A stretch of 53,183 nt of DNA from an uncultured Acidobacteriia bacterium (GTDB lineage Bacteria > Acidobacteriota > Terriglobia > Bryobacterales > Bryobacteraceae), in NCBI GenBank assembly GCA_903875575.1, contig CAIQWJ010000102.1, positions 1 to 53,183 on the forward strand, given 5' to 3'. Below the pieces are notes generated by a model that saw nothing but the letters and a program-made list of their open reading frames with translations, had not been told where the DNA came from and ran no database searches. The translations under genes were made by a program, and so were the position numbers. Position 1 is the first letter of the stretch; each line of letters starts with the position of its first letter. Shown piece after piece: positions 8,288-38,733 of the stretch.

Positions 8288-8296
8288 GCGCGACGG

Positions 8297-13182: not shown

Positions 13183-13359
13183 AGCGACCATGATGAGGCA
13201 CGCGCCATGCCACGATTTGCCGCCCGCAAGTAACTGAAAAGACTAGAGCACAACCACCAGCCAACTGGCAAAGCGCCACCAGTCTGGTTGTTTTCAGCCA
13301 AAAGCTAATAGGTTTCGTTTATTTTCAGGCTCGGCGAGCCAGACAGCCGCGTCCTTCCC

Positions 13360-13365
13360 TATAAT
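13360..13365 (+). promoter_or_regulatory. consensus -10 element, TATAAT
   Basis: A perfect TATAAT ends 9 nt before the ATG at 13375. Transcription would start about two or three nucleotides before the start codon, so the mRNA would be leaderless or nearly so. No -35 consensus is visible at the right distance. Confidence 0.55.
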
Positions 13366-13374
13366 TGTGAACGC

Positions 13375-14361
13375 ATGGTTCGTCTTCCTGCTACCGCGCT
13401 TATCGCGCTTATTTTCGGGCTTCTGATGACAACCGCAGTACCTTTGTCCGCACAGGCAACTCCCGAGCGGTTCTGGCTGGCCGGTTGCTACGACGGTAAC
13501 CATATCATCGTCTATTTCCAGGCCGTCAAATTTAAGGGCACTGTACCGGCGGTGAGACGCAGGATCAACCCTCCGGTTTCGGACGGCTTCTTTATTCCGG
13601 AGGAGCTTCCGGCAGACTATGTAGCTGCATTCCAGAAGTCAACGGGCGCGGAGCATTTTTCACTGGGAGACACCTACGATTTGCTGACCGGCGATGGCGG
13701 GGTAGTGCCAATTACGCTGACGACCCTGGTTGGTACGGAAGGCGATGAAGAGGTTGGCAATGACTCTTACATTGGGGCGCTCGCGACGTTGAGTAACCGC
13801 AGCGGCGTACCGCCGCATGGTTACTACGCCGTCAGGCGGCATCGGGAGGTGAAGGCCGGTCCGAAGATGATTTCGGCGCTGTTTGCGCGACTCCTGGATG
13901 AACCGACCCGGCTTAACACACAGACAAGAATCGCCGGGCTCCTCACGCAGCGACAGAGGATGAACCCAACCGGTGTTTCCCCCCGGTTTTCCATCCAGCA
14001 GTTCCGCCTGGCGAATGGCAGCCTCCGCTACTATGCTCAGGCCGACTGGAGTTCCGCCAAAGGGCAACCTGACGAAAAAGAAGACATACTGGCAGCCTGG
14101 ATCTCACCTATTCCAGGCCCGCACATTCTGGCAACGGAAAGCCGTATGTCGCCGGACGGTCTGAACGCCACGCTTCCGCGGCTACTCAACGTGGTGGACC
14201 TCGGTGATGGCCGAACCGGACTGGTGGTTGCCTCGTCGGGTGAGGACAGCATCGCCCTGACGCTTTTCGAATACCGCGATGGGTTGAGCCGCGCAGATGC
14301 CTCACCTACAGGTCATCGCAGCAGGCGAATAACTCCACCCGATTCAGACTATTCGCCCTGA
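13375..14361 (+). CDS. secreted protein of unknown function
   Basis: A 328-residue protein with a signal peptide (MVRLPATALIALIFGLLMTTAVPLSAQA). The mature part is mixed alpha/beta with no motif I recognise. Two phrases stand out: WLAGCYDGNHIIVYFQAVKF near the start and ILAAWISPIPGPHILATES in the second half. It lies between two other secreted-protein genes transcribed from the opposite strand, and converges on the gene at 14349 with a 13-bp overlap of the 3' ends. The promoter is a perfect TATAAT placed 9 nt before the ATG, with no Shine-Dalgarno sequence. Confidence 0.75.
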   Translation: MVRLPATALIALIFGLLMTTAVPLSAQATPERFWLAGCYDGNHIIVYFQAVKFKGTVPAVRRRINPPVSDGFFIPEELPADYVAAFQKSTGAEHFSLGDTYDLLTGDGGVVPITLTTLVGTEGDEEVGNDSYIGALATLSNRSGVPPHGYYAVRRHREVKAGPKMISALFARLLDEPTRLNTQTRIAGLLTQRQRMNPTGVSPRFSIQQFRLANGSLRYYAQADWSSAKGQPDEKEDILAAWISPIPGPHILATESRMSPDGLNATLPRLLNVVDLGDGRTGLVVASSGEDSIALTLFEYRDGLSRADASPTGHRSRRITPPDSDYSP

Positions 14362-15455
14362 GTAATCGCAGGCCGGACGACTGCGGGCTTGGGTGCCGCA
14401 GGCGCTGCGGGTTTCGCAATCGGTGCCGGTGCCTGCATCGCCTTCAGCGCGTTCTCCAGTTGCGTCTCCGGAACACTCATCGCCAGGTTAATCGTCGCAC
14501 CGTTGGCGGTGACTTTCACGTTCTGCAGCAGTTGTGCAATAGCCGCAAACTGGGCATTCTGTCCGCCACCCGCCGCGCCGCCAGGCATCTGTCCGCCGCT
14601 CATGGCCGCAATAGATACCAACGCCGTCAGCACGTCCGCCAGGGATTTCGCCGTGGGGGCATCTTTGGTCATTGCCTGACCGGTGACCTGCACCACTGTG
14701 CCAAACTTGACGCCGCCGCTGGAACCAAGAATCCCGTTGAACATCTGGCCCATCTGGCCAAGTGGGCCGGCAGCCGTGGCCGGAGTCGCACCGGCGGGGG
14801 TTGCCGACGAACTCGTCAGGCTCGCAAGAATAGTAGCGAACGGGCTCGTGGTCACCATCCAGGCGTCCTGCGTCGAACTGAGAGATTGCACCTGCGTCGC
14901 CAGCGCCGGATTAATCGAATTGACGGCCGATGAACGATCAATGGCCGCCTTCACAGACCCGGTGTCGCCCAGAATTGCGACGTTCGTGCCCATAAAGGCA
15001 ACGGAGAAACTGGTCTTCGTGACCGCGGCACCCGTTCCAATGGTGCCAGTACCGGAAATCAGCGTGGCTCCGCCGTAGCTTGTTACCGTCATCTGCGGAG
15101 ATTTCGCCGCTGCCGCCGCCGTCAACTGGCTCACCTGAAAATTACCCAGGGCCAGCACGAGCCCGCTGCTGGCCGGTCCCGAAGCGGAAGCAGCCAGAAC
15201 TTCGCTCACATCCTGGCGCGGGTCAAAACCTGTGCTGGAGACAAATGACTGAAGCTGGTCGGCCACCGCCGAAGTCACCTGGGTGATCACGTACTGACCG
15301 AACGGCGTGTTCTTCGCATTCGCCACGTTAATACCCGCCAGCGAGGCAGCGTCCGGCATCACGAGATTCATGAGGCGCGGATCGGCCCCGGAGGAATTCG
15401 CGGCGAACAACATCGAGGTCAGGGTAAAGCCGGCGAGCAGGCAGGTGGTTCTCAT
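14349..15455 (-). CDS. secreted Ala/Ser-rich protein of unknown function
   Basis: About 368 residues. The start at 15455 (MRTTCLLAGFTLTSMLFAANSSGA) is chosen because GAAGGAGA lies 8 nt upstream and a signal peptide follows; a longer frame reaching 15518 lacks both. The mature protein is low in charge and rich in Ala, Ser, Thr and Gly, with segments such as FGQYVITQVTSAVADQL and VAFMGTNVAILGDTGSVKAAID that suggest a mixed alpha/beta fold. The C-terminus is an Ala/Pro-rich tail (APAPIAKPAAPAAPKPAV). I do not recognise the family. The last codons overlap the convergent gene at 13375-14361. Confidence 0.75.
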   Translation of the reverse strand: MRTTCLLAGFTLTSMLFAANSSGADPRLMNLVMPDAASLAGINVANAKNTPFGQYVITQVTSAVADQLQSFVSSTGFDPRQDVSEVLAASASGPASSGLVLALGNFQVSQLTAAAAAKSPQMTVTSYGGATLISGTGTIGTGAAVTKTSFSVAFMGTNVAILGDTGSVKAAIDRSSAVNSINPALATQVQSLSSTQDAWMVTTSPFATILASLTSSSATPAGATPATAAGPLGQMGQMFNGILGSSGGVKFGTVVQVTGQAMTKDAPTAKSLADVLTALVSIAAMSGGQMPGGAAGGGQNAQFAAIAQLLQNVKVTANGATINLAMSVPETQLENALKAMQAPAPIAKPAAPAAPKPAVVRPAITQGE

Positions 15456-15613
15456 AAAGGTGTCTCCTTCAATGCTAGCGCAAAATACCGCCCCGGAATG
15501 GAAACGGCGCGCCGTCAATATCTAAGACCGGCCTGGCAGGCGATTATTACGGTGCCTGGGTCGGCTCAACCGGCGGCTGCGATATTCGCCGCGTTTTCTG
15601 CTACATTGCAGTT

Positions 15614-16816
15614 ATGACGCGGGGAAACTCTTTCAAAAATGCCGAATTCATTCGAAATGCGGCCGTCCTGTGCCTGCTGGCCGCAGGATTCGCGCACGCG
15701 CAGGCCGACCGGAACTTCCAGGGCACATGGCGGCTCGACCCGGAACGCAGCGATATCGCCGGCATGAAGGTACCCGCCGATCCCACCTTCCGCGCCGAAC
15801 AAAGCCCCGTTTCCCTGACCCTGATGGCACCTTCCGCCGACGGCGGCCCGGCTGCGTTCGCCGTTTATCCGCTGGATGGACGGCAGGAGAAGTACCAGGC
15901 AGGCACGCTCCAGAAGAACACCGCGACCAAGTGGGAAGGCTCGGCCCTGCTGGTGAACACCATCGTGACCGGCAGCGATAGTTACTCCATCGCAGAACGC
16001 TGGAAGCGGTCCAACGACGGCAACACGCTGACCATTACGCGCAGCATCGTGCGGGCAACCGGCGAGTCGGAATACGTCCTGGTGTACGTGAACGCCGAAG
16101 CCGCTCCGGTTCCAATGCAGGCCGGGACCTTGCCGAACGCCTCGCCCGCCGCATCCAGCACGACCGCCCCGCGGCAACCGGCGCTGATTCCCCGCACCGC
16201 ACCGCAGCCCACGGCGGCGGCCGGTCCGGACTACGTGGTGACAGCCGGGACGCACATCCTGCTGCGCCTCACCAATGAGGTCGATACCAAACGAGCCAGG
16301 ACTGGCGATCACGTCTATCTGGAAACCGCAGTGCCGGTCTTCGTGAATGGCCGCATGATCATTCCCGTTGGCAGCTACGTGAATGGCTCAATATCCGATG
16401 CGAAGCAGGCCGGCCGCGTGAAATCGAAGGCTTCGCTCACCCTGCAATACGATTCCATCACCCTGCGCAGCGGCACCACCCGCGACCTGCGCTCCCGTCC
16501 GGACAGCGTGGATTCCCAGGGCAATCTGGATAAGACCGAGGGCAAGATTGACGGCGGCACGAATAAGGTGAACGCCGGCACCATGGCCCGAACAACAGTC
16601 GTTGGCACCGGCGTGGGTGCCGCGATCGGCAGCGCGGCGGGCCACATCGGCGCAGGAGCCGGCATCGGTGCCGCAGCCGGGGCACTGGCCGGACTGGGCA
16701 GTGTGTTCGGATCGAAGAATCCGGAAGTCGTGTTGCGACCGGGCACCACGATGGACATGGTGCTCGACCGCGATATCCACTTCAGCGACGAAGATCTGCG
16801 CGGACGCGTCCAGTAA
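15614..16816 (+). CDS. secreted protein with a VirB10/TrbI-like beta domain
   Basis: A 400-residue protein with a signal peptide ending AAGFAHAQA. The first domain (FQGTWRLDPERSDI, WKRSNDGNTLTITRSI) looks like a small lipocalin-like beta barrel. The second half carries the VirB10/TrbI-like pattern shared with the protein at 12220: ILLRLTNEVDTKRARTGDHV, IIPVGSYVNGSISDAKQAGRV and a Gly/Ala-rich segment (VGAAIGSAAGHIGAGAGIGA). A TACATT hexamer ends 6 nt before the ATG and there is no Shine-Dalgarno sequence. It ends 6 nt from the convergent rsgA. Function unknown. Confidence 0.75.
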   Translation: MTRGNSFKNAEFIRNAAVLCLLAAGFAHAQADRNFQGTWRLDPERSDIAGMKVPADPTFRAEQSPVSLTLMAPSADGGPAAFAVYPLDGRQEKYQAGTLQKNTATKWEGSALLVNTIVTGSDSYSIAERWKRSNDGNTLTITRSIVRATGESEYVLVYVNAEAAPVPMQAGTLPNASPAASSTTAPRQPALIPRTAPQPTAAAGPDYVVTAGTHILLRLTNEVDTKRARTGDHVYLETAVPVFVNGRMIIPVGSYVNGSISDAKQAGRVKSKASLTLQYDSITLRSGTTRDLRSRPDSVDSQGNLDKTEGKIDGGTNKVNAGTMARTTVVGTGVGAAIGSAAGHIGAGAGIGAAAGALAGLGSVFGSKNPEVVLRPGTTMDMVLDRDIHFSDEDLRGRVQ

Positions 16817-16822
16817 GAGGCG

Positions 16823-17800
16823 TCAAAAATCGCCGCGGATTTTCAGGTACGACATGTAGCGTCCCTTCGGGATGCTTCCGTCATCCACCGCGCCGCGAAT
16901 GCCGCAGCCCGGCTCTTCGCGATGTTTGCAGTCCCGGAATCGGCAGCCATATTCGGCAAACTCGGGAAACGCCGCGCTCAACTGATCGGCTGTCACGGTA
17001 CCCGGATCAAAAACGCGAATGCCCGGAGTATCGATAATGCGCGCGCCGTTCTTCAGCGTGTAGAGCCAGGACGAGGTTGTCGTGTGAGTGCCCTTTCCGG
17101 TTTCTTCGCTAACCCCGCCTGTGCGGGCTCTGGCTTCCCGCGCCAGAGCGTTCAACAGAGAACTCTTTCCTACGCCGCTGTGTCCGGCGAAGACCGCGAG
17201 ACTGCCCGCGAGCAGACCGCGCAGTTCGTCGATGCCTGTGCCGTCAGTACCCTCGTCGACCTGGACGGAGCAGCGCACCACAGGTACGCCGGCCTCACGA
17301 TAAACTTCAGCGGCGGAGGTATCGGCGGCAAGATCGACCTTGGTGACGCAAAGGATCGGTTGTACACCTCCCCGCGCGGCGGCGACCAGGTAGCGGTCAA
17401 CAAGGCCGGGACGGAAGGGCGGGTCCGCGATTGCCGCGACGATGACCAGGATATCGATATTGGCCGCAATGACGCGTTCGCGGTGAACATTGACGGGGTC
17501 CGTCCGCGAGAGCGTAGTCCGGCGCGGCGCGATGGCTGCCACTTTTTCGAAACGAATTGCCACGCGGTCCCCCGGCGCGACGGACATCTCGGTGCGGCAG
17601 AGGCGCGGTTCGCCGCCATCGGGCGCGATAGTGCAGACGCCGGGCCCTACGCCGATCACGAGGGAATCGGTCTCCAGGCCTTCTTCGTTGTTCGTAACTT
17701 TCGCTTTGTTCTTTGCTTTGCGTGCCACGATTTCGTTGACACGCTGATGACGCTTCATAGCGCGGATATCGGCCATGCCGCGCTGTTCCTGTCTGTTCAT
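16823..17800 (-). CDS. rsgA: ribosome small-subunit biogenesis GTPase RsgA
   Basis: A circularly permuted GTPase that acts late in 30S subunit maturation. The motif order proves the permutation: G4 CVTKVDL comes before G1 GHSGVGKSS and G3 DTPGIRVFD. An OB-fold domain forms the N-terminal third, and a C-terminal zinc site is visible (C-X5-C-X-H then C in EEPGCGIRGAV). At 325 residues it has normal length. The N-terminus has an extra basic stretch (RHQRVNEIVARKAKNKAK), common in the family. It stands alone; its upstream region leads into the REP-bounded RAYT gene. Confidence 0.95.
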   Translation of the reverse strand: MNRQEQRGMADIRAMKRHQRVNEIVARKAKNKAKVTNNEEGLETDSLVIGVGPGVCTIAPDGGEPRLCRTEMSVAPGDRVAIRFEKVAAIAPRRTTLSRTDPVNVHRERVIAANIDILVIVAAIADPPFRPGLVDRYLVAAARGGVQPILCVTKVDLAADTSAAEVYREAGVPVVRCSVQVDEGTDGTGIDELRGLLAGSLAVFAGHSGVGKSSLLNALAREARARTGGVSEETGKGTHTTTSSWLYTLKNGARIIDTPGIRVFDPGTVTADQLSAAFPEFAEYGCRFRDCKHREEPGCGIRGAVDDGSIPKGRYMSYLKIRGDF

Positions 17801-17927
17801 TTGTTAGATGGCTCCTGCTGACGTTGGAAGGAAGAGACACGTCGGGCGGACGGTCCCGGGGCAGATTCGCGAGCGTGGTCAGCGGACAGACATAGGCGTA
17901 AGAACAGCATACCGCAGATCGAAAGGC

Positions 17928-17950
17928 AGGGTCAGGGCTTCGGCCCTGCC
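17928..17950 (+). repeat. REP-like repeat, left copy
   Basis: A 23-bp sequence containing the hairpin CAGGGC-TTCG-GCCCTG. It is repeated perfectly and in inverted orientation at 18582-18604, so the two copies bracket the RAYT gene. Hairpin-forming repeats around a RAYT gene are the expected substrate of that transposase family. Confidence 0.8.
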
Positions 17951-18030
17951 AACGTGCTTCTGCCCGGAGCAACCGCAGATTCTATGCGCCCGGCGTGAGA
18001 TTTTCCCGGCCTCGGCGCACTATCATCCCG

Positions 18031-18600
18031 ATGAATCCCTACAACCTCCGCCTGCCCTATTGGGACGTTATTGGAGCACCGGTGTTCGTGACGTTTCGCC
18101 TGCATGGAAGTCTGCCCGCAAACCGGGTGTTTCAGCCCGTAAGCGTCAATCATGGAAGGGCATTCGTTGCCATGGACCAGTTGCTCGACCACCCGCGCTC
18201 CGGCCCGATATTCCTGCAACATCCGGAAGTTGCGGGAATGGTGATGGATTCATTGCTGGATGCAGACAGACGCTTCAGGCGCTATACGCTGCATTCGTAT
18301 GTTGTCATGCCAAACCATCTGCATCTTCTCGTGACGCCCAAAGTGTGCGCCTGGGAGTGGCTGCGACCAATGAAGGCCTTTACCGGGTACGAGGCGTTAA
18401 GAATTTTGAACCTGAGCGGGCTGCCGTTCTGGCAGGATGAAAGCTGCGTCCACCTGGTTCGTAACGCGGTCGAGCGTGAGCGGGTAATCCGTTATATCGA
18501 GGAAAATCCGGTCAAAGCAGGCCTGGTCTCAGTGCCGGAAGATTTTAGGTGGTCCAGTGCCGCGCGGGGCGAAAGCCCCGCGGCAGGGCCGAAGCCCTGA
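18031..18600 (+). CDS. REP-associated tyrosine transposase (RAYT, Y1/HUH family)
   Basis: A single-strand DNA transposase-like protein of about 189 residues. The HUH motif is visible as VVMPNHLHLLV and the catalytic Tyr lies in the conserved YIEENPVKAGL helix. RAYTs recognise REP hairpins; matching 23-bp inverted repeats flank this gene on both sides. Its stop codon and last residues (AAGPKP) lie inside the right-hand repeat. A GTG at 17995 would add 12 residues; the ATG at 18031 is preferred because conserved sequence starts there (MNPYNLRLPYW). TATCAT ends 4 nt upstream. It converges on lepA and looks intact. Confidence 0.9.
   Translation: MNPYNLRLPYWDVIGAPVFVTFRLHGSLPANRVFQPVSVNHGRAFVAMDQLLDHPRSGPIFLQHPEVAGMVMDSLLDADRRFRRYTLHSYVVMPNHLHLLVTPKVCAWEWLRPMKAFTGYEALRILNLSGLPFWQDESCVHLVRNAVERERVIRYIEENPVKAGLVSVPEDFRWSSAARGESPAAGPKP
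18563..18582. repeat. GNRA-type hairpin next to the right REP copy
   Basis: A perfect 8-bp stem (CGCGGGGC and complement) closed by a GAAA loop. It lies at the 3' end of the RAYT coding sequence directly before the right REP copy, giving two adjacent hairpins. The left side of the gene has no matching hairpin. Confidence 0.7.
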
Positions 18601-18604
18601 CCCT
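18582..18604 (-). repeat. REP-like repeat, right inverted copy
   Basis: Perfect inverted copy of the repeat at 17928-17950. It contains the stop codon of the RAYT gene and ends 5 nt before the lepA stop codon on the other strand, so it may also act as a transcription barrier between the two. Confidence 0.8.
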
Positions 18605-18609
18605 ACGCT

Positions 18610-20424
<1,815 letters not shown>

Positions 20425-27657: not shown

Positions 27658-29793
27658 TCAATTCGTGGGCCGATAAGCCCCGCGCCCCGACTTCCCCTTC
27701 AATCCCTCCGGTCTCGAAACGCTTCTGTAGTGAAATATATAGCTTTGAGGGCAAAACCCGACTCGGCGGCCCTGTCTTACCCAACGCTGTTGCAATTCAA
27801 CCTCATTGCGCACGAGCGGATACGCCGGGTCGAATACGGCCTGATCCGAGAACGCCCCGCGCCACCATGTTTCGGTCTTCGCCATCATGAAGAATCCGTT
27901 GATGGGTGCCTCAATCGGCCCGACTGCATGTCTCCCGAGAGCCGCGACAACCGCGCCCATTTGCTCTCGTTGATCGTCGCAAACAAGCTGATCCGGATGG
28001 CAAAAAGGGAGCACATTCTGCCATGGCGCATGACCTGGAGCATTCGTTACCGGACCAACCAGGTCGAAGCCACCCTCAAGTGCGCTGACGAGAGCATCAA
28101 ACCAATTCGGCGAGAACAGAACATCGCTGTTCGTGCAGACCGTATATTTCGCGGATATCTCGGCGGCAAGCCGAAGCCCGACGTTCCATGAACGCGTCAA
28201 GCCCCCATGGTCGCCGAAGTGAACCTTCCAGCAGTTCGGATTTGGCCAGGTTGACCAGTCAACTGATTCCCATTCCGCGCTGGCGTCGTCAACGATAACG
28301 TATTGTCTCGCCGGTTTCGCGTGGTTTACCGCCCCTCCGTGTAGAGATCTGACCGCCTTCTTTACGTACTCAAAATGCCCATGGGACGGAATGATAACCA
28401 GTACGTCGGGAGCTTCCCGCCCAATGCTGAAGGCGATGTTGCCCCCGCCCAAGGGCGCACACTCATTCACGCTTTCACAGACGGCAGTGCCCTCGCTGCC
28501 GGCGTCCTTCGACGGACCAGGCAAGTTCGTGCCTCCCTGCTGGAACACCCTTTCAAATCGGTATGCCGTACTTGAGTCGAACTGTCGTAAGGACGACTCC
28601 TCCAGTTTCCGCGAACCACTCTTCACCCTGGCAAAATCAGCCCACCAGGGTGCTTCCGTTCGCACACGGGCCGGAGTGCCGTTGCCGGTATCGGGCCGGA
28701 CGGTCAGTGCCCCCGGGTGTTTCCGGCGGATATATAGAAATTCGTCCACATTTCGCACCCTGGTATGAAAGAATGCACGGAGCAGAAACTGCGTATCCGC
28801 GCTGAAGATCACATGCGTCGAAAAGCCTCCAACTCGCTCATAAACATCGCGCTTGACGATGGTAGACGGATGCAACTGAGCAAGGGACGGACCGATTCCC
28901 AGCGCCCCGTTGACATCCAGTGGATAGCGCACGGCAATAACACGGCGGCTCAGTTCATCCAATCGCAATTCATGACTGCCGACAAGTCCCACACTGTCGG
29001 CTGCCAGAGAAGGCGCTAGCTTCTCGAACCGGTCCGAACACGATAGATCGTCCGAATCGTGGAAGATGATGAGCGGATCGCCTACGCCCTCAATTAGCTT
29101 CCTGCGGACCACATAAGGCCCGGCAGGCGAAGGCGACACCCGGAAGAACTCGACACCCGAATGATCGGACGTTACTGCCTCATGCGAGCCCATGTCCGCT
29201 TCATCGATATCCAGTCCAACCAGCGTTCTCCCTTCCACGCCCCGAATGGCCGCGGCATGCGCAAGAGCAGCCCTAAGGTGCCGTGGGGGTCCCCGGTGCG
29301 CCATTACCAGGGTGCAACGACCGTCCACGGGTGTTTCGTTCGTAGGCTGCGCTGACCGGCGTCCCACCTGATGAACGGACAATGAGCCCACAACCAATAG
29401 GCCCTGCGCAATCTCTTCCAGAAGATGAAAACAGAAGGCCGCGATGCCGTCATCCTGACAGCCGGGCCGGCTCAGAATTGCGCGCGCAACCGGCGACGAG
29501 CAACGGCAGGACTGGACATCGTGACGGTCTAAATGCAGACCCAGGATCGGTGATGGTTGCCAGGCGACAAATACGGTCACACCGTCGTTGTCGCCCGGCG
29601 GTTCCAATGGGTCCGCTGGAAACAGATCGCAGGATGCCGCCCGAGTTGACGGGTTCAGAACGGCCACAGCGTCAACATCCCTGGCCACCATCTCGCGAAG
29701 TTCGTAAAGGGCATTCTCTTCACGGCTTTCGCGAACTATGCTAACCGTCCCCGCGCAGAGCCCCACGATCAACCAGTCAGATACCGTGATCAT
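27658..29793 (-). CDS. double GT2-like glycosyltransferase
   Basis: 711 residues with three parts. Residues 1-150 form an unassigned domain whose end (SPVARAILSR to FHLLEEIAQGLL) looks like a winged-helix/PqqD-like unit. Residues 158-365 form a GT-A domain (TLVMAHRGPPRHL, acidic motif FHDSDD, then RDVYERVGGFS). Residues 462-700 form a second GT-A domain of family GT2 (DVLVIIPSHGHFEYVKKAV, VIVDDAS, CTNSDVLFSPNWFDAL). It starts 6 nt after the previous gene's stop, so the two transferases are co-translated. It closes the minus-strand island operon. The acceptor may be the Cys-rich peptide of the island, which is inference from context only. Confidence 0.75.
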   Translation of the reverse strand: MITVSDWLIVGLCAGTVSIVRESREENALYELREMVARDVDAVAVLNPSTRAASCDLFPADPLEPPGDNDGVTVFVAWQPSPILGLHLDRHDVQSCRCSSPVARAILSRPGCQDDGIAAFCFHLLEEIAQGLLVVGSLSVHQVGRRSAQPTNETPVDGRCTLVMAHRGPPRHLRAALAHAAAIRGVEGRTLVGLDIDEADMGSHEAVTSDHSGVEFFRVSPSPAGPYVVRRKLIEGVGDPLIIFHDSDDLSCSDRFEKLAPSLAADSVGLVGSHELRLDELSRRVIAVRYPLDVNGALGIGPSLAQLHPSTIVKRDVYERVGGFSTHVIFSADTQFLLRAFFHTRVRNVDEFLYIRRKHPGALTVRPDTGNGTPARVRTEAPWWADFARVKSGSRKLEESSLRQFDSSTAYRFERVFQQGGTNLPGPSKDAGSEGTAVCESVNECAPLGGGNIAFSIGREAPDVLVIIPSHGHFEYVKKAVRSLHGGAVNHAKPARQYVIVDDASAEWESVDWSTWPNPNCWKVHFGDHGGLTRSWNVGLRLAAEISAKYTVCTNSDVLFSPNWFDALVSALEGGFDLVGPVTNAPGHAPWQNVLPFCHPDQLVCDDQREQMGAVVAALGRHAVGPIEAPINGFFMMAKTETWWRGAFSDQAVFDPAYPLVRNEVELQQRWVRQGRRVGFCPQSYIFHYRSVSRPEGLKGKSGRGAYRPTN

Positions 29794-29799
29794 CAGTGC

Positions 29800-31647
29800 T
29801 CAAATCCGGCGCCCCAGGCGGATTCCGTCGCCTGCGAGAACAGCCGCCCGTTGCGTGATAGCTGGCCACCACTCCAGAAGCCGACCGTATGCGGCCAACA
29901 CAGCCTGAATCGCTGGCATAGCCTCGTCAGTACCATTCAGCAACAAGTCGCTGGGCATGGAGAAATCGTACTCGCTGGCGTGCCGCATCGCCTCAATTCT
30001 CCCGCCGATGTCCTCCGCCCAATGGACAGGCATGTAACCATCTTCGGCCAGCATGTTCTCGAGCGTCTCTATCTGCGCTGATCGATGGGAACACGCAAAC
30101 ACCGTTAAGACTTCCGCTAACTCAGTGATCGGTAGCAGCGCCAGTTCTTGAAACCAGGCACCGAGGGAAGAGACTGGATGAAGAGATCCGCCCTGCGGAA
30201 CAGAGCGCCAAGCCGAGGTGCACCAAAGCATGACATCGGACATGCGGAACCTCACGCCCTGGTCGTCGGCGTAATTTCGGTCAGTTGGCGGAGCATGGAC
30301 TAGAGTAAAAGGCAGATGCGCGGCGTACGAATCGCCACCACACACGGCTACAGTTCGGGCGAAGACGCCATCCTCATTATTGAAATCCGGCATAAAGGGG
30401 GGCAAGAGAGTTCGAGCATCCAGTCCCCTATTGTCTAATCCAAGAAACATGCCGACCGAGAGCGCGTCCGAGTGAGTCACGGTTGCCCGCAGCGACTGAC
30501 GAACTATCTTTCGGGACTTTACGACATCAGCGTATCCACCACTCAGATTCTGGATGCGACTGCGAGTGTTTGAGGAATGGTGGGATATCAGCCCAAGGTC
30601 AGTGTGAAAACCACTATCGCCAGCCGCCCCGTTTGAAGTGATTGAAATTCGCCCGCTCCCGCCAAGCAAACTCGTAAGGAAATGGCCGCACATTCCGTCA
30701 AGGTTCACATGTCGCCCTGCCGACACGGTCGCGCGGACAATCGACGACAACGGTTTTCCAAGGAAGCTCTCGTGCTCGCCGAGGACATCGAGCGCCGTCG
30801 GCGTCACGAATGCGAGAGCATCCTTCTGTTCAGGAACACACCACGTTTCCTCCGGCCGTTCATGCCCCGCAACAAACACGTCCCCGCCGCTGGAAGTCTC
30901 AGGGACGCGGCCCACGTCACACACGGTGTCATCGTCGACGCTGAGAACCATGCAGCCGAGAGTTTGAAGCAGGATTGCGTTTCGATTGGCACCCGGGTGC
31001 CGCGTGGAATACCCAGTACCCCCTAGAAGGTAGTCAATCACGGCTGAGGGAATCCGCCCGCCATCGGACAGGAGGACCGCGAATGCTTGCTTTTGTTCCC
31101 TTCCAGCATAAACAACAGGGAGTTGCGTCCGGTCCCGCACTAAGCTCACCGACGTGTTCCTGAATTCCGTACCCGTCGCTTGGTCTCCGCAATCATCAGC
31201 AATAAAAACACTACATTGCCTATCAAAAGCCGCCAGATTGGAGGCATACGAAGCCACCGCCCTCTCGACGCATGTCGCTCGTCCCGAGGTAGGCATCGCT
31301 ATCCACTCGATTCTGTGGCTTTGCCCAAAAAGATCGGAAGACTCGGGGATAATGGGTGCCGTCACAAGTTGTTCAAACGAGACGAGCCCATTCCGCTCCC
31401 TTAGTTCGATGAACAAAGATGTGAGCGACGCGCTGGACATCGACGGCAACATATCGACCGCTTTCCGAACCGCTACCTCGATGGGCTGCAGAGCATTCCA
31501 CTGGCAGACGGCGGCCGCCTCCATGGTCGACATCCGACGACTAAACCCTGCTAGTGGAAAGTGAAGCAGTTCCTGACCCGGCCCGGCTCGAAAGCGCGAG
31601 CACGGACCACATCTGAATCTTTCTGGCATACTATCTTGAGAGTTCAT
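29800..31647 (-). CDS. GT-A glycosyltransferase with a probable PqqD-like N-terminus
   Basis: About 615 residues. Residues 20-95 (ELLHFPLAGFSRRMSTMEAA to SLFIELRERNGLVSFEQL) have the strand-then-helices pattern ending in a short L-x-x-x-G-L turn seen in PqqD-like/RRE domains. Residues 112-300 form a GT-A domain: RIEWIAMPTSGRATCVERAV, VFIADD, GANRNAILLQTLG and SVDDDTV (DXD metal site). The remainder (300-615) has no recognised motif. Start codons at 31668 (TTG), 31647 and 31629 (ATG) are possible; none has a good Shine-Dalgarno sequence. The PqqD-like call is structural guesswork. Confidence 0.65.
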   Translation of the reverse strand: MNSQDSMPERFRCGPCSRFRAGPGQELLHFPLAGFSRRMSTMEAAAVCQWNALQPIEVAVRKAVDMLPSMSSASLTSLFIELRERNGLVSFEQLVTAPIIPESSDLFGQSHRIEWIAMPTSGRATCVERAVASYASNLAAFDRQCSVFIADDCGDQATGTEFRNTSVSLVRDRTQLPVVYAGREQKQAFAVLLSDGGRIPSAVIDYLLGGTGYSTRHPGANRNAILLQTLGCMVLSVDDDTVCDVGRVPETSSGGDVFVAGHERPEETWCVPEQKDALAFVTPTALDVLGEHESFLGKPLSSIVRATVSAGRHVNLDGMCGHFLTSLLGGSGRISITSNGAAGDSGFHTDLGLISHHSSNTRSRIQNLSGGYADVVKSRKIVRQSLRATVTHSDALSVGMFLGLDNRGLDARTLLPPFMPDFNNEDGVFARTVAVCGGDSYAAHLPFTLVHAPPTDRNYADDQGVRFRMSDVMLWCTSAWRSVPQGGSLHPVSSLGAWFQELALLPITELAEVLTVFACSHRSAQIETLENMLAEDGYMPVHWAEDIGGRIEAMRHASEYDFSMPSDLLLNGTDEAMPAIQAVLAAYGRLLEWWPAITQRAAVLAGDGIRLGRRI

Positions 31648-31730
31648 AAGGTTGGCACGGCAGGACAATGGGCGAAATTGGACGAGCCCAATGTTGACGC
31701 CACCAATTTCCTTGCCTATTGGTGCAGGGA

Positions 31731-32354
31731 CTACGAGTGCTTGTCATCAGGCGCACCGCCGAGTTCCAACTTCGGTAGTGCCACACCGAATTGTTGCTCA
31801 ATCTGCGTTGCCACCTTTCCGCTGTAGGCACCGACCCACACGTTTCGCACGGTACCGTCTCGAGAAACGACTAATGTCTCAGGAGTCGCGGTGATCTTAA
31901 GTGCCGCGACAGTCGCTTGGCCACTGTCCGCGTAATACACAGGAAATGCTAGGCCGCTCTTCTTGACATAGTCAGCAAGCCCAGTGTCTGTGAGCGATAT
32001 ACCAATAAACCGGTAGCCAGAAGAGCGCTCGAACACCGTCTTCATCGCCGTCATGTTCCTCTTGCACCACACGCAGGTCGGCGTAAACACATAGACAATT
32101 GTTGGCCTCGTGTCACCGTTCCACCTCAGGGTGGTTCGCTGCCCGCGAATATCACTCAAGGCCAGTTCAGGGAGTCGCTGCCCGGCCTCCAAGGCAGGCG
32201 CTTTGGCCGGCGGATGTAACAGCACCCACCTCTGATAAAGAATTACGCTGACTAACAGGGCTACAACCGCTACTCCGAGCCATGTGCCAGCAAGAATGCG
32301 GACGATCGCTCTTGTTATTCGATCTATTCGGTGAAGGGCGTTGATGGCGTACAA
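31731..32354 (-). CDS. membrane-anchored thioredoxin-like (TlpA-type) protein
   Basis: 207 residues. One membrane segment at residues 24-41 (GTWLGVAVVALLVSVILY) anchors a thioredoxin-fold domain outside the cytoplasm. The active site is CVWC (Cys94, Cys97) in FTPTCVWCKRN, and the cis-Pro region is visible in TATPETLVVSRDG. The start is the TTG at 32354, since AAGGAG lies 8 nt upstream; a TTG at 32378 would place that sequence inside the gene. Such proteins reduce or form disulfides in secreted proteins. In this island the obvious client is the eight-cysteine peptide. Confidence 0.85.
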   Translation of the reverse strand: MYAINALHRIDRITRAIVRILAGTWLGVAVVALLVSVILYQRWVLLHPPAKAPALEAGQRLPELALSDIRGQRTTLRWNGDTRPTIVYVFTPTCVWCKRNMTAMKTVFERSSGYRFIGISLTDTGLADYVKKSGLAFPVYYADSGQATVAALKITATPETLVVSRDGTVRNVWVGAYSGKVATQIEQQFGVALPKLELGGAPDDKHS

Positions 32355-32505
32355 TTTAAGAGCTCCTTTTTGAGACAATCCAAATGCCGTTGACAGCTTG
32401 CCAACTCTGCGGAAACGTACCTGCGCAGCCGCAGCACAAACAGACAGTAGAAACGCGTCACTGTGGATTCGTTTGCGTCGAAGACCACGTAATGACGAGT
32501 TCTTT

Positions 32506-32513
32506 AGTTATCG
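32506..32513. repeat. 8-bp target-site duplication, left
   Basis: AGTTATCG directly precedes the left inverted repeat of the IS and recurs directly after the right one (33826-33833). Confidence 0.95.
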
Positions 32514-33825
32514 GGCTCTGCGCAGGAATATGAAGGGGTGATTTAGAATTGCGGGAGTGACAGACCGGGAATTGACGACAATACTGGACTGGCCGGGGTA
32601 CCGGGTTTACCGGCATGAGATTGACGAAGCTGGGCGAACACTGAAGTTGTGGGTGCGACGCAAGCGCGGGAACCGGGTATTGATCTGCTCGGGGTGCGGA
32701 GGCAGAGCGCACAAGATTGAGGAGGTCCGCCAACGGGAGGTACGGGATCTGCCGTGGCGCAAGTATCAGGCAATCGTGCATGTGGAGTACTACCGGATAC
32801 GCTGTCCGAAGTGCGGCCTGAAAGTGGAGCAGGTTGCCCAGTTGCCGAGCAAGGCTCCGTTCAGCAGGGATTTCGAAGACGCTGTCGGATTGGCCTGCGA
32901 ATCGGCGGCGGCCCGGCAAGTGGCGCGGCAGTTCGGCCTGGCGGCAAGCACCGTCAGAGCCATTGACTTGCGGTATCTGGAGCGCTGGACAAAGAGCCGG
33001 AAGAAGCCGGTGCTGCGACAAATGGGTGTGGATGAAATCTTTCTGGGGAAGACACAAAAGTTTCTGACTGTGGTCAGCAACCTGGAGACTGGCGAACCGC
33101 TGTGGTTCGGAGCGGACCGGAAGGAAGAGACGCTCGACGAATTCTTCCGGACGCAACTCAGCGGGATGCAGCGCAGCCGAATCAGCGCCGCATGTGTGGA
33201 CATGTGGGAACCGTTTACGAAGAGCATCCTGAAATGGGTAGCGGACTGCCGAATCGTATTCGACAAATTCCACGTGATGCAGCATGCGAATAAGGCCGTC
33301 GACGAAGTTCGCCGCGCCGAGTTTTTTCGGAAGGGCGGACCGATGCGTGGCCTGGTGAAGGGCAAGCGTTGGTTGCTCCTCAGCCGATGGGTGAATCTGG
33401 ACGGCAAGAAGCGGCAACTACTGAACGACCTGTTCCGGCTGAACCGCCGGATGATGAAAGCCTATCTGTTGAAGGAAAGCCTGGATCGCCTGTGGACCTA
33501 CAGCTACGAGAGAGCGGCGAACCGCTATCTCAATCAATGGATCGATCAATTGCGCTGGCAAAGGCTGGAACCCTTCAAGAAGCTGGCTGTCATGCTCCTG
33601 CGGCATCTGGAAGGAATCCTCAACTACTGCAGGGTCAAGGTACCGTTCGGAGTGGTGGAGGCGGTCAACGGCAACATCAAATCACTGCTCCGCCGTGGTC
33701 GCGGTTATAAGAACCTCCGCTATCTGCTGCTAAAGGCCCAGCGAATGGCAGTTCTTAAGACCGAATTTGTCGTCTTCCGGAAAGCCGCCTAATATGCGGA
33801 CCCTTTCACATTCTCGTTCAGAGCC
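32514..33825 (+). mobile_element. complete ISL3-family insertion sequence
   Basis: A 1312-bp element with imperfect 26-bp terminal inverted repeats (32514-32539 and 33800-33825; 19 of 26 positions match, both starting GGCTCTG). It carries one intact transposase gene and is flanked by 8-bp duplications, as ISL3 elements are. It is inserted in the stop codon of the TIGR03435 gene and separates that gene from the thioredoxin-like gene. Confidence 0.95.
32557..33792 (+). CDS. tnpA: ISL3-family transposase
   Basis: 411 residues, full length. The N-terminus has the zinc-binding cysteines of ISL3 transposases (CSGCGG and CPKCG). A helix-turn-helix (ARQVARQFGLAASTVRAID) follows. The catalytic DDE residues fit MGVDEIFLGKTQKF (D), CVDMWEPFTK (D) and VVEAVNGNIKSLLRRGRGY (E). 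The GTG start at 32557 lies 17 nt inside the left inverted repeat end. No frameshift or internal stop is present, so the element may still be active. Confidence 0.95.
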   Translation: MTDRELTTILDWPGYRVYRHEIDEAGRTLKLWVRRKRGNRVLICSGCGGRAHKIEEVRQREVRDLPWRKYQAIVHVEYYRIRCPKCGLKVEQVAQLPSKAPFSRDFEDAVGLACESAAARQVARQFGLAASTVRAIDLRYLERWTKSRKKPVLRQMGVDEIFLGKTQKFLTVVSNLETGEPLWFGADRKEETLDEFFRTQLSGMQRSRISAACVDMWEPFTKSILKWVADCRIVFDKFHVMQHANKAVDEVRRAEFFRKGGPMRGLVKGKRWLLLSRWVNLDGKKRQLLNDLFRLNRRMMKAYLLKESLDRLWTYSYERAANRYLNQWIDQLRWQRLEPFKKLAVMLLRHLEGILNYCRVKVPFGVVEAVNGNIKSLLRRGRGYKNLRYLLLKAQRMAVLKTEFVVFRKAA

Positions 33826-34618
33826 AGTTATCGGTCGGTATTGAATTCAGCCTGTCAATCACCAGCTGAGGGAGGCTACGATGCCCGGATACCAGCTTGA
33901 GTCCGATGTTATGAAGAGCCGTGGAGATCGACGGCGCTTCTCCTGAAGATACGCCGTTGACGTCGTCCGATGCGGGTGATGATTTAGCTGAGGCCCCAGA
34001 AAACTCAATATCAATATCGAACGTTCCCTCAATTCCGGTCGCATCGAAGACTGGCCGCCCAGCGACCATTAGGCATGACGCGAGCGTCGCAACTGTCAGT
34101 GCGCGGGCATGGTAATCGTCGTCGGCGACCACCACCGTGCAGCCGTTCGACTGGGCTCCGTCCGGCGGTATAATACGCTTTGGTTTGAAGGCCGCATTGC
34201 CTCGAACCAATTCGAACACGGGGACGTCGCGCGGTTCGTAATGACTGACCAGTTTGAACCGATCCGCTAATAGCGCACGCAACATTTCTGGGATCTGCTT
34301 TTTTGTGGATCCATCTGGCAGCGTGGCCGCGATTTCAAAAAATTCTGGACGGCCTTCTGACTTCCACTCGATTTGGTAGTCCTTAACCGCATAAGCACGA
34401 GAGATAAGTCGCCGAAGGGGGATGCGAGAATAGTATATTCGCCCCGCGTCCTCGCGGATGACGTCCGCGGCGAGCGTCTGCGGTGGATCACGCTTCACAG
34501 ATGCCGCGACAAATGTTCTAGTAGACAAGTCCGTCGCTGTGACCTGCCCAAACGCCGCTTGCACTAGCAGGCCAGCCGCCCACCAGCGGCCCACAATCTG
34601 CATTCGCACTCTGCACAT
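33818..34618 (-). CDS. TIGR03435 family secreted protein, stop codon altered by an IS
   Basis: About 266 residues with a signal peptide (GRWWAAGLLVQAAFGQ). The mature part fits the TIGR03435 soil-bacterium family: TFVAASVKRDPP, IPLRRLISRAYAVKDYQIEW, EMLRALLADRFKLVSHYEPRDVPVFELVRG and GTFDIDIEFS in order. Function is unknown; the family is greatly expanded in Solibacter-type Acidobacteria. The start at 34618 follows a GGGGGA. The ISL3 element has inserted after the first base of the original TAA stop, so the protein now gains Trp-Leu from the inverted repeat before a new TGA. Confidence 0.88.
   Translation of the reverse strand: MCRVRMQIVGRWWAAGLLVQAAFGQVTATDLSTRTFVAASVKRDPPQTLAADVIREDAGRIYYSRIPLRRLISRAYAVKDYQIEWKSEGRPEFFEIAATLPDGSTKKQIPEMLRALLADRFKLVSHYEPRDVPVFELVRGNAAFKPKRIIPPDGAQSNGCTVVVADDDYHARALTVATLASCLMVAGRPVFDATGIEGTFDIDIEFSGASAKSSPASDDVNGVSSGEAPSISTALHNIGLKLVSGHRSLPQLVIDRLNSIPTDNWL
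33826..33833. repeat. 8-bp target-site duplication, right
   Basis: AGTTATCG, identical to 32506-32513, directly after the right inverted repeat of the IS. Confidence 0.95.
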
Positions 34619-34734
34619 GGATATCCCCCGGTTACCGTGCCTGCCAGCCAACAACAAATCGTGAACACCAGCGGGAGTGAGCCACCGACGTGGCATCACC
34701 CCCGAAAACACTCACCTCTAATTATCTGAATTAT

Positions 34735-34977
34735 CTAGCTAGTGGGAGCACAAGCACATACACATTGATAGCCCCGCGGGTTGATGCCAATGTTACAGCC
34801 CGAATATGGGCAGGCCCCGAGCGCCGTGTTCATACATATATTGACCTGGCAGTCGCTAATCATGGCCCCGGTGCATCCGTCTGCTTGGATTGCAGAGTAC
34901 CCGCCGATACCGAGAGCTAAAATGCCAGCAACTGCGATCCGCTTTGCAACACCAGTGGAAGCTGTTTCATTAATCAT
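34735..34977 (-). CDS. small secreted eight-cysteine peptide (candidate modified peptide)
   Basis: 80 residues. Residues 13-32 form a signal-peptide-like helix (basic KR, then IAVAGILALGIGGYS) with a possible cleavage after AIQA, leaving a mature peptide of about 48 residues. That part has eight cysteines at 35, 43, 48, 56, 61, 72, 74 and 76, plus several Ser, Thr and Gly, and no Lys. The gene is supported by AAGGA 7 nt before the ATG. It sits between an AraC-type regulator and the TIGR03435 gene, on the same strand as a thioredoxin-like protein and two glycosyltransferases. I do not recognise the family. It could be a bacteriocin-like or structural peptide stabilised by disulfides and perhaps glycosylated. 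Confidence 0.75.
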   Translation of the reverse strand: MINETASTGVAKRIAVAGILALGIGGYSAIQADGCTGAMISDCQVNICMNTALGACPYSGCNIGINPRGYQCVCACAPTS

Positions 34978-35078
34978 TGTCTTGTCCTTTTTTGTGTTTG
35001 AATGTTGTACCGCAAAACATCATAAGGCAAATGTATATGATGGCACTAACGCAAACAAGTGCCCAACTCAGACATTCG

Positions 35079-35432
35079 TTACCCATTTAGGCCACGTTTC
35101 GTTCGTCGATATTGCGTAGGGCTCAGCTTGAATGCGGCTTTAAAGTCCCCGACAAAATGTCCGTAATGAATAATTCCAACTGCAACCATGATTTCCTTTA
35201 CACGAAGGTTTGTCGTGCAGAGAAGAGTTGCAGCCTGATCCATTCGCCGGGCTTTCAGCGCTGGGATTGGCGTTAGGACTGAATACGAATCTTGGAATAA
35301 CCGGTCAAGATGCCGGGCCGATACATTCACGTGGAAGGCGAACTCTTCCAGGGTCCACGGCTCGGAGAATCGTGATTCAATCAAGTTTAGAACCTCTTGG
35401 ACGCGGTGATCGGTCGACGTACTGTTACGCAT
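35079..35432 (-). CDS. AraC-type DNA-binding regulator, HTH domain only
   Basis: About 117 residues comprising just the AraC double helix-turn-helix (WTLEEFAFHVNVSARHLDRLF and RVKEIMVAVGIIHYGHFVGDFKAAFKLSPTQYRR). The ligand-binding half found in full-length AraC proteins is missing. An upstream GTG (35576) would add 48 residues without recognisable domain. The conserved GF-x-S-x-F second-helix motif is altered to GIIHYGHFVGDF. It is the first gene of the minus-strand island and the likely local regulator. Base composition here is visibly more AT-rich than in the flanking core genes. Confidence 0.8.
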   Translation of the reverse strand: MRNSTSTDHRVQEVLNLIESRFSEPWTLEEFAFHVNVSARHLDRLFQDSYSVLTPIPALKARRMDQAATLLCTTNLRVKEIMVAVGIIHYGHFVGDFKAAFKLSPTQYRRTKRGLNG

Positions 35433-37524: not shown

Positions 37525-38733
37525 GTGAAAATTGCGCTTGATGTCCGGCGAATTCGCGATTTCGGCGTCGGCACGTACATCCGCAATCTGCTGCAGGCCA
37601 TCGCGGCGCAGAACTCACAATACGAGTTCATCCTGATTTGTTCCGCGGAAGTGCGGCAGCAGGTGCCTCCGCTCCCCGGTAACTTCCGCTACGAAATTTA
37701 TGACCGCCGCGATTCGTCGCGATTCGATCATATTGCGCTCCCGCATTTGCTGCGAAAGCTGCGTGTGGATCTCACGCACATCCCGTTCCACCGCGTCCCG
37801 CTGCTGATGCCGCAGCCTTACGTGGTGACCATCCACGATCTCAGCAGCCTCTTCTATGACGACGCCACCGGCATGCTCCATGAGGCTCGTGTCTTCCGCC
37901 TCAAACGTGGTCTCGAACGCGCCGCCCGAATCATTGCGGTGTCCGGAGCCACGCAGCGCGACGTGGTGAATCTGGTACCCGCCGCAGCAGATCGCGTCCG
38001 GCTGATCTACAACGCGCCAGATCCCCAGTTCCTGGGCCGCAGGACATCCCACGCCGTCGCTGCGTCTTCCCTCCCCTGGGGAACGCAAACCGTAGCCGGC
38101 GCAGCTACCGACCCCGCCGCCACAGCCCGCGAACGCCACCGCATTTTGGAGCGCTACCAGATCAACTACCCGTTTCTGTTGTATGCGGGCTCCATCCGTC
38201 CGCAGAAGAACATCCCCCGCCTGATTGAGGCCTTCGCTGTGGTGCGCCAAAAACTCGAAAACCACGGCGGCTACAAAGACCTCCGGCTGATCATCATCGG
38301 CGACGATATTTCGCGCTACCCCAACGTGCGGCGAGCAGTCATCCAGAGTCGCGTGGAAAACTCCGTGCGCTTCCTCGGTTTCATTCCGCTGGAAACGCTG
38401 CGGGTATTCCACGAACTTGCCACTGCCTTCGTTTTTCCCTCGCTCTACGAAGGCTTCGGCCTGCCGCCCCTCGAAGCCATGGCATCCGGTACGCCGGTGA
38501 TCGCGTCGCAGGTCAGTTCCCTGCCCGAAGTGGTAGGCGGCGCGGCTATGCTGGTGAATCCCGAAAACGTTTTCGATATCGCGCGCGGCATTGAAGAGGT
38601 GCTGCTCAACGCGGAATTGCGCGAAGAACTGATCACACGCGGACGCCGCCAGGCAGCCCGCTTCAGTTGGGCCCGAACCGCACAGGAAGTCCTGGCGGTT
38701 TACGACGAGGCCGGCCGCCGTCCCGCCGCCTGA
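37525..38733 (+). CDS. GT4 family glycosyltransferase
   Basis: A 402-residue GT4 transferase. It begins MKIALDVRRIRDFGVGTYIR, a typical opening. DLTHIPFHRVPLLMPQPY and VTIHDLSSLF are in the N-terminal half, and YAGSIRPQKNIPRLIEAF and FPSLYEGFGLPPLEAMASG (EX7E) in the C-terminal half. A 30-residue Ala/Thr-rich insertion lies around residues 175-210. It is close behind glyA but functionally unrelated, and may belong with the surface glycan genes at the window start. Sugar specificity unknown. It converges on the VWFA gene with 6 bp between stops. Confidence 0.9.
   Translation: MKIALDVRRIRDFGVGTYIRNLLQAIAAQNSQYEFILICSAEVRQQVPPLPGNFRYEIYDRRDSSRFDHIALPHLLRKLRVDLTHIPFHRVPLLMPQPYVVTIHDLSSLFYDDATGMLHEARVFRLKRGLERAARIIAVSGATQRDVVNLVPAAADRVRLIYNAPDPQFLGRRTSHAVAASSLPWGTQTVAGAATDPAATARERHRILERYQINYPFLLYAGSIRPQKNIPRLIEAFAVVRQKLENHGGYKDLRLIIIGDDISRYPNVRRAVIQSRVENSVRFLGFIPLETLRVFHELATAFVFPSLYEGFGLPPLEAMASGTPVIASQVSSLPEVVGGAAMLVNPENVFDIARGIEEVLLNAELREELITRGRRQAARFSWARTAQEVLAVYDEAGRRPAA

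Follow-up and report, generated by a model that had tools for sequence, protein, structure and literature searches.

A candidate acidobacterial operon for a Sec-exported, disulfide-stapled glycopeptide

The 53,183-nucleotide contig CAIQWJ010000102.1 of an uncultured Acidobacteriia bacterium (assembly GCA_903875575.1; hereafter the window, meaning this whole stretch) carries on its minus strand six genes that we read, with a probability of about 57%, as an operon for a Sec-exported, disulfide-stapled glycopeptide whose glycosylation would be guided by a docking domain, and as a candidate type of ribosomally synthesized and post-translationally modified peptide (RiPP). The six genes encode an AraC-type regulator, a small Cys-rich precursor, a TIGR03435/DUF3738 protein, the thioredoxin-like protein P0002 and the putative glycosyltransferases P0003 and P0004. 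All were already listed in an earlier, first-pass annotation of this DNA, which lacked the ISL3-family insertion sequence that we find between them. The features are as follows, where RRE stands for RiPP recognition element and HTH for helix-turn-helix:

35079..35432, minus strand: AraC-type HTH regulator, ATG at 35432 in a frame open from 35576 (HTH_18, E = 1.9e-15)
34735..34977, minus strand: precursor peptide of 80 residues, its Sec-like N-terminus hydrophobic and followed by a stretch of about 50 residues that contains 8 Cys
33818..34711, minus strand: TIGR03435/DUF3738 protein (TIGR03435, E = 2.6e-48)
32514..33825, plus strand: ISL3-family insertion sequence, transposase at 32557-33792 (DDE_Tnp_ISL3, E = 9.2e-61)
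31731..32378, minus strand: P0002, predicted membrane-anchored thioredoxin-like protein with a CVWC motif (AhpC-TSA, E = 1.2e-8)
29800..31647, minus strand: P0003, predicted glycosyltransferase of 615 residues with a PqqD/RRE-like N-terminal domain, ATG at 31647 (family alignment A3)
31384..31557, minus strand: PqqD-like (RRE-like) stretch of P0003 (profile-profile P = 9.1e-5)
30928..30936, minus strand: DDD of P0003, a DxD-type motif invariant in 16 of 16 rows of the family alignment
27658..29793, minus strand: P0004, predicted second glycosyltransferase with two GT-A-like regions (Glycos_transf_2 and MftF-like profile matches)

Recurrence of the cassette around P0003 homologues

The first-pass annotation had proposed a disulfide-bonded and glycosylated peptide, and this appears to be the best reading because a Cys-rich peptide, a thioredoxin-like protein and a glycosyltransferase recur together in divergent loci. 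We compared 24 distinct P0003-family loci with as much flank as their contigs allowed, the tandem genes of L061 being taken as one locus, the near-identical L048 and L049 being counted apart and the gene limits of L176 being approximate (8000-9500). A small-peptide filter retained open reading frames (ORFs) of 55-130 residues within 5 kb in which a hydrophobic stretch is followed by at least 6 Cys at a density of at least 10%, and a second setting was used for long ORFs; the filter was chosen after several peptides were known and the long setting after L175, with the background scored identically. A secreted-like, Cys-rich peptide lies within 5 kb at 10 of the 24 loci, nine of them found by the small filter (the window, L046, L047, L048, L083, L084, L085, L086 and L087) and one, of 170 residues, by the long filter (L175), whereas 20 hand-chosen, non-random 20-kb stretches from eight related genomes, 400 kb in total, gave one candidate under the small setting and none under the long one, such that about 0.5 would be expected against the 10 seen. 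As a control, 30 TIGR03435 loci of the source genome (109 kb) yielded no candidate with the final filters and a single Arg-rich, spurious-looking one with a looser filter.

Gene order recurs as well: the peptide lies upstream of the P0003 homologue and on the same strand in nine of the ten loci, L046 being divergent, and a thioredoxin-like neighbour is found in eight. It carries a CxxC motif in the window, in L046 (CRFC, found by BLAST to P0002), L047 (CPSC; Redoxin, E = 0.036), L048 (CHYC), L087 (CHYC, in a protein that also has a rhodanese domain) and L175 (CHFC). The corresponding protein of L083 and L084 has one Cys only (CxxS) and no Pfam support. A second glycosyltransferase follows downstream in four loci, namely the window, L048 (a weak GT2 match, E = 9.2e-4, read from its twin L049), L083 (6698-8449) and L084 (10560-12257), with a GT4-type domain fused to a polysaccharide-lyase-14 domain in the last two. 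AraC-type regulators accompany the peptide in the window, in L046, where a relative 43% identical to the window regulator lies beside the peptides, and in L086, where the gene is upstream of the peptide (HTH_18, E = 2.1e-19). TonB_C-like proteins, all under the Pfam cut-off, occur in L047, L084, L086 and L087, and a signal peptidase gene (L087 7687-8340; Peptidase_S26, E = 1.6e-34) lies between the peptide and the P0003 homologue of L087.

The TIGR03435 protein had been singled out earlier as a partner of the peptide. The gene is indeed present in the window and in two further peptide-bearing loci, L046 and L048, but with only 3 of 10 such loci carrying it and 134 matches in the 6-Mb source genome, several of them in adjacent runs, we rejected it as a marker of the system. 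TIGR03435, DUF3738 and DUF6271 were named in no paper found in a literature search that, here as throughout, covered open-access publications.

As described in the first-pass annotation, the window peptide has a hydrophobic N-terminus followed by 8 Cys. These Cys are spaced by 7, 4, 7, 4, 10, 1 and 1, AAGGA lies a short way upstream of the ATG, and one of the filters for small, secreted-like ORFs rich in Cys picked out this peptide and no other in the whole 53 kb. Across the loci the candidate peptides are Arg-poor (0-4% Arg), and their mature Cys counts (8, 6, 4, 10, 6, 6, 14, 6, 6, 8, 6 and 14) are even in 12 of 12 peptides, whereas 25 of the 62 members of a more loosely chosen background set have even counts; for ten independent peptides an all-even result would have a chance near 0.001. 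These 12 comprise one peptide from each of the ten loci, one further copy from the L046 tandem array and an additional peptide encoded on the opposite strand in L083, with Cys counted from the end of the hydrophobic segment, within which L087 and L175 have one Cys each. Such even numbers fit full disulfide pairing. In L046 (6107-7090) the peptide gene is present in three tandem copies, the middle one with a broken frame and left out of the count, and the third lacks Cys positions 1 and 3 of the first, as if a disulfide had been lost as one unit. The second L083 peptide (15077-15442) has 109 residues from its ATG and 14 Cys, and the ORF between it and the L083 cassette may encode a transposase. 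Elsewhere, L183 (666-950) encodes a secreted-like peptide with repeated Cys-Lys-Gly motifs, which we take to resemble bufferin precursors.

One more homologue was recovered when a profile of the L083, L084 and L087 peptides was run on 237 genomes of the family (G070; E = 2.7e-4, 79 residues, 6 Cys). It adjoins a CRYC thioredoxin-rhodanese protein, both domains of which are under the Pfam cut-off, and a GT4-type glycosyltransferase (Glycos_transf_1, E = 9.8e-22) lies about 0.9 kb downstream on the same strand; no P0003-family match was reported in this genome at E <= 1e-10. G070 thus appears to preserve the pattern of peptide, thioredoxin and glycosyltransferase with the glycosyltransferase type swapped. 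A peptide profile run on 200 genomes of the class gave a sole match, in G333, a probable chance match overlapping a large gene.

For the window peptide itself no detectable relative was found in 200 kin genomes. Weak matches in 97 of 201 genomes (its own included; best foreign E = 0.0025) were not accepted: 18 of the 29 foreign loci fetched were inspected by eye and found to be unrelated or off-frame, and none of the 29 holds relatives of P0002 to P0006. The check proposed earlier, whether the peptide co-occurs with both transferases and the thioredoxin, could be answered in part, in that peptides are enriched at P0003-family loci, but the window peptide is without detectable relatives, and P0004, without a match in 60 kin genomes at E <= 1e-8, leaves co-occurrence testable for P0003 only.

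Domain architecture of the predicted enzymes

P0003 itself matches no Pfam or NCBIfam model. Within its family, Glycos_transf_2 is listed at E <= 10 for four of the 16 members (best 2.2e-7), and two members weakly match the MftF model TIGR03965 (best E = 1.1e-4); the invariant DDD is of a kind whose role is known from GT-A enzymes generally. P0004, which starts 6 bases past the P0003 stop codon, has a GT2 domain at residues 466-590 (Glycos_transf_2, E = 8.2e-9); its residues 157-340 resemble MftF (E = 1.8e-10), the score of 40 bits lying below the cut-off of 280. The three GT-A domains of the first-pass annotation are thus plausible rather than proved. The Protein Data Bank (PDB) held no relative of P0004 at E <= 1 and none convincing of the P0003 family at E <= 10.

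The feature that would tie P0003 to a peptide substrate is its N-terminal domain. PqqD has the RiPP-recognition fold, and an alignment of 15 family N-termini (L085 was excluded, as its N-terminus did not align) matched a reference alignment of 23 PqqD domains, taken from 30 fetched loci after weaker or partial ones had been dropped, over positions 7-67 of 67 with P = 9.1e-5 and an HHalign probability of 59%. None of 200 column shuffles did as well (best P = 0.027), and the reversed alignment and nine slices of the glycosyltransferase region were all worse (best slice 0.01). Together, these comparisons make the P0003 N-terminal domain probably PqqD/RRE-like. A second RRE was sought in P0004 and rejected: stretches within its residues 1-160, compared as a single sequence, matched neither PqqD nor the N-terminus of P0003 (P = 0.016-0.033).

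P0003 is without an N-terminal hydrophobic segment and is therefore expected to be cytosolic. P0002, by contrast, has a single strong hydrophobic segment near residue 28, by hydropathy, which would place its thioredoxin domain on the periplasmic side; it also has a ResA-like match (E = 2.2e-10) that lies below the cut-off.

The P0003 family is sparse and divergent, with identities to P0003 of 14-42% (alignment A3). In overlapping samples that each include the source genome, relatives were found in 10 of 201 kin genomes (E <= 0.001), 11 of 237 family genomes (E <= 1e-10), 9 of 399 class genomes (E <= 1e-20) and 5 of 396 phylum genomes (E <= 1e-15). The source genome has a second homologue, about 35% identical, at a contig start (G000:C37:194-1966; L045 116-2020). 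A collection scan gave six named records, from Bryobacterales bog_234, three uncultured Acidobacteriia, a Luteitalea and a Planctomycetota, the first four being the same contigs as in G008, G055, G017 and G014; viral contigs held no relatives, and PHROGs gave nothing useful.

The insertion sequence sits between the TIGR03435 and thioredoxin-like genes and splits the operon. Its terminal inverted repeats match at 19 of 25 positions, and it is flanked by a perfect 8-bp target duplication, AGTTATCG, at 32506-32513 and 33826-33833. The current TIGR03435 stop codon falls within the element (boundary 33825), and when the flanks are read on from one another without the element, the protein would originally have stopped two codons sooner. 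On these grounds the operon was probably uninterrupted until a recent insertion.

Sixteen window proteins were scanned against Pfam, namely those of the six cassette genes and of ten further ORFs between 23.8 and 41.3 kb. Three of the ten gave no match and one is the ISL3 transposase; the other six are a NADH dehydrogenase subunit, an acyltransferase, a serine hydroxymethyltransferase, a GT4-type glycosyltransferase, a VWA protein and a Thg1-like protein. The GT4-type gene (37525-38733, plus strand) lies about 2 kb past the regulator, behind the serine hydroxymethyltransferase gene.

Proposed pathway and competing explanations

We propose that the operon would be under the control of the AraC-type regulator and that the 80-residue precursor, bearing a Sec-type signal sequence, would be synthesized. 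P0003 would then bind the precursor's N-terminus in the cytoplasm through its PqqD/RRE-like domain and, with its GT-A domain, add a sugar to the core, on Ser or Thr more likely than on Cys, with P0004 extending the glycan or filling further sites. Sec export and removal of the leader by signal peptidase would follow, and in the periplasm the membrane-anchored thioredoxin-like protein would oxidize or shuffle the 8 Cys into four disulfides; we infer this order of events, like the enzymatic steps themselves, from the genes and their predicted locations. As to function, all 7 loci measured have a G+C content 1 to 12 points below that of their surroundings, and this, together with sporadic occurrence, divergent cores and tandem copies, would suit a bacteriocin-like antagonistic peptide moved between strains, a guess to which we give slightly less than even odds; no immunity gene was recognized.

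Several observations weigh against this pathway. No peptide was found at 14 of the 24 P0003-family loci (L045, L049-L055, L060, L061, L082, L174, L176 and L177). Among these, L052, L054, L055 and L176 are without the N-terminal domain, L177 is a fragment, and the contigs of L045, L060 and L082 end just upstream, yet L050, L051, L053, L061 and L174 have flank and still no peptide. L049 (in G014) is 99.9% identical to L048 (in G017) over the 3.6-kb stretch of TIGR03435, P0003 and glycosyltransferase genes, but unlike its twin it is without the peptide and most of the thioredoxin, which would reflect either misassembly or a loss of genes. Mapping the presence of the peptide onto a 21-row tree (built without L055, L176, L177 and the twin L049, and with several very long branches) takes 6 changes, a number no higher than that of 183 of 500 shuffles, so that the peptide shows no clustering beyond chance; the three labels taken together are weakly clustered (12 of 200 shuffles). 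The peptides of separate loci mostly share architecture and mostly do not share sequence, and their signal sequences were assessed by hydropathy only. The PqqD match stops at that HHalign probability of 59%, with the Pfam PqqD model listed by 0 of 16 family members at E <= 10, and residues 2-20 of P0004 are mildly hydrophobic (1.79), which makes its cytosolic place less sure. Finally, the first-pass annotation had stated that homologous peptides occurring without these neighbours would refute it. This applies in part: 14 of the 24 P0003-family loci have no peptide, and G070 has a homologous peptide without P0003, though it keeps a thioredoxin and another glycosyltransferase.

Two of the peptide-less loci have further features. 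In the Planctomycetota locus L061 (1057-8068), two tandem P0003 homologues adjoin an ATP-binding cassette (ABC) exporter with a C39 peptidase (C39, E = 1.1e-33) and HlyD, a common export kit for peptide products; a precursor was looked for there and none was recognized. About 2.4 kb downstream of the P0003 homologue of L051, a very large ORF (12863-19000) presumably resembles a peptide synthetase.

The loci without a peptide would suit the explanation that the glycosyltransferases act on another substrate, be it a cell-surface glycan or a secreted TIGR03435, TonB_C or CarboxypepD_reg neighbour, with the peptide and thioredoxin being a separate, unmodified pair in the same regulon. The GT2-family sequence and the fusion of the second glycosyltransferase to a polysaccharide-lyase-14 domain in L083 and L084 would suit it too, but the enrichment of peptides near P0003, the PqqD-like domain and the different glycosyltransferase type beside a homologous peptide in G070 speak against it, and we regard this alternative as unlikely. 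The first-pass annotation had instead suggested an acidobacterial relative or analogue of the glycocins. In a glycocin-like chemistry, P0003 or P0004 would glycosylate Cys thiols and the remaining Cys would form disulfides. The joint occurrence of a Cys-rich peptide, a GT2-type enzyme and a thioredoxin is what such chemistry would call for, and L061 shows a P0003-family locus beside a C39 exporter. Kinship with glycocins is nevertheless unsupported: no glycosyltransferase model of the SunS/GccA kind in Pfam or NCBIfam is matched by P0003, P0004 or the 16 family members, nor are glycocin-type peptide models matched; the peptide's N-terminus is Sec-like by hydropathy; and no C39 ABC exporter is found among the 16 window proteins, the last two being differences that the annotation had itself noted. 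We take models and structures of the SunS/GccA type to be present in the libraries searched.

The Cys counts are less decisive here. Of the seven Cys in the precursor of thermoglycocin, six form disulfides and one is glycosylated (PMC12457901), and even counts in 12 of 12 peptides misfit one S-linked sugar of this kind; however, orniglycocin is described with three disulfides and with two N-acetylglucosamine (GlcNAc) residues, each on a Cys of its own (PMC12457901). Even counts therefore speak against a single S-linked sugar but are equally compatible with two. We nevertheless prefer sugars on Ser or Thr and consider S-glycosylation distinctly unlikely. A metal-buffering peptide with its Cys as metal ligands would share the Sec signal and Cys-rich core of bufferin precursors (PMC12452194), but MNIO (DUF692) and DUF2063 were unmatched among the proteins scanned and the thioredoxin partners suggest disulfides rather than free thiols, which makes it very improbable. 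Chance adjacency of unrelated genes with a spurious peptide ORF, for which the absence of any homologue of the window peptide might speak, is hardly credible given that one filter singled out this peptide alone in 53 kb, that 10 of 24 loci compare with one candidate per 400 kb, and that Arg content is 0-4%.

Relation to known peptide systems

If the operon does encode a disulfide-stapled glycopeptide, the ten loci supply candidate substrates for RRE-glycosyltransferase fusions, for which reports of 2020 and 2025 gave no product, and one system would unite a Sec-exported RiPP with glycosylation guided by a docking domain and with a dedicated step of disulfide formation in the periplasm, giving a gene-encoded route to small, stapled, sugar-bearing peptides. 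Going further, we tentatively suggest, at odds somewhat short of even, a RiPP class whose members would be O-glycosylated, fully disulfide-stapled and Sec-exported, with a glycosyltransferase bearing its own peptide-docking domain and with interchangeable P0003-like and GT4 types around a constant core of peptide and thioredoxin, sporadic in Acidobacteriota. In the open-access literature searched we found neither such a class nor a comparable product in Acidobacteriota, nor a paper combining the terms cysteine-rich, glycosyltransferase, RiPP recognition element and signal peptide.

The cassette shares with glycocin clusters, such as those of sublancin, glycocin F, thermoglycocin and orniglycocin, a small Cys-rich ribosomal peptide, a GT2-type glycosyltransferase and thioredoxin-like thiol-disulfide proteins (PMC12457901), and differs from them in having a Sec-like signal instead of a C39-cleaved leader and a PqqD-like domain fused to the glycosyltransferase, as well as in the missing C39 ABC exporter (16 window proteins scanned) and the unmatched glycocin-type models. 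Sec signals are described as highly unusual in bacterial RiPP precursors, with Sec use in the native host demonstrated for bufferins only (PMC12452194). Bufferins and other MNIO-modified RiPPs likewise combine a Cys-rich precursor bearing a Sec signal with an RRE-type domain, borne by the MNIO partner (PMC12452194), whereas here the presumed modifier is a glycosyltransferase, a disulfide-type enzyme is present, and MNIO and DUF2063 are unmatched in the 16 window proteins.

Weak profile similarity links P0004 and 2 of 16 P0003-family members to MftF (TIGR03965), but P0004 scores 40 bits against the cut-off of 280 and no mycofactocin genes were seen among the neighbours scanned. A short precursor encoded beside its modifying enzyme is also the arrangement of RRE-dependent RiPP clusters, and it is found in the window and at 10 of 24 loci in all. 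A parallel in domain architecture is provided by the RRE-glycosyltransferase fusions flagged by RRE-Finder, in which an RRE-type domain is likewise fused to a glycosyltransferase; the passages that mention these fusions give no product and refer neither to a thioredoxin, nor to a Sec peptide rich in Cys, nor to a cassette of Acidobacteria, and the fusions may include P0003 (PMC7470986; PMC12710340).

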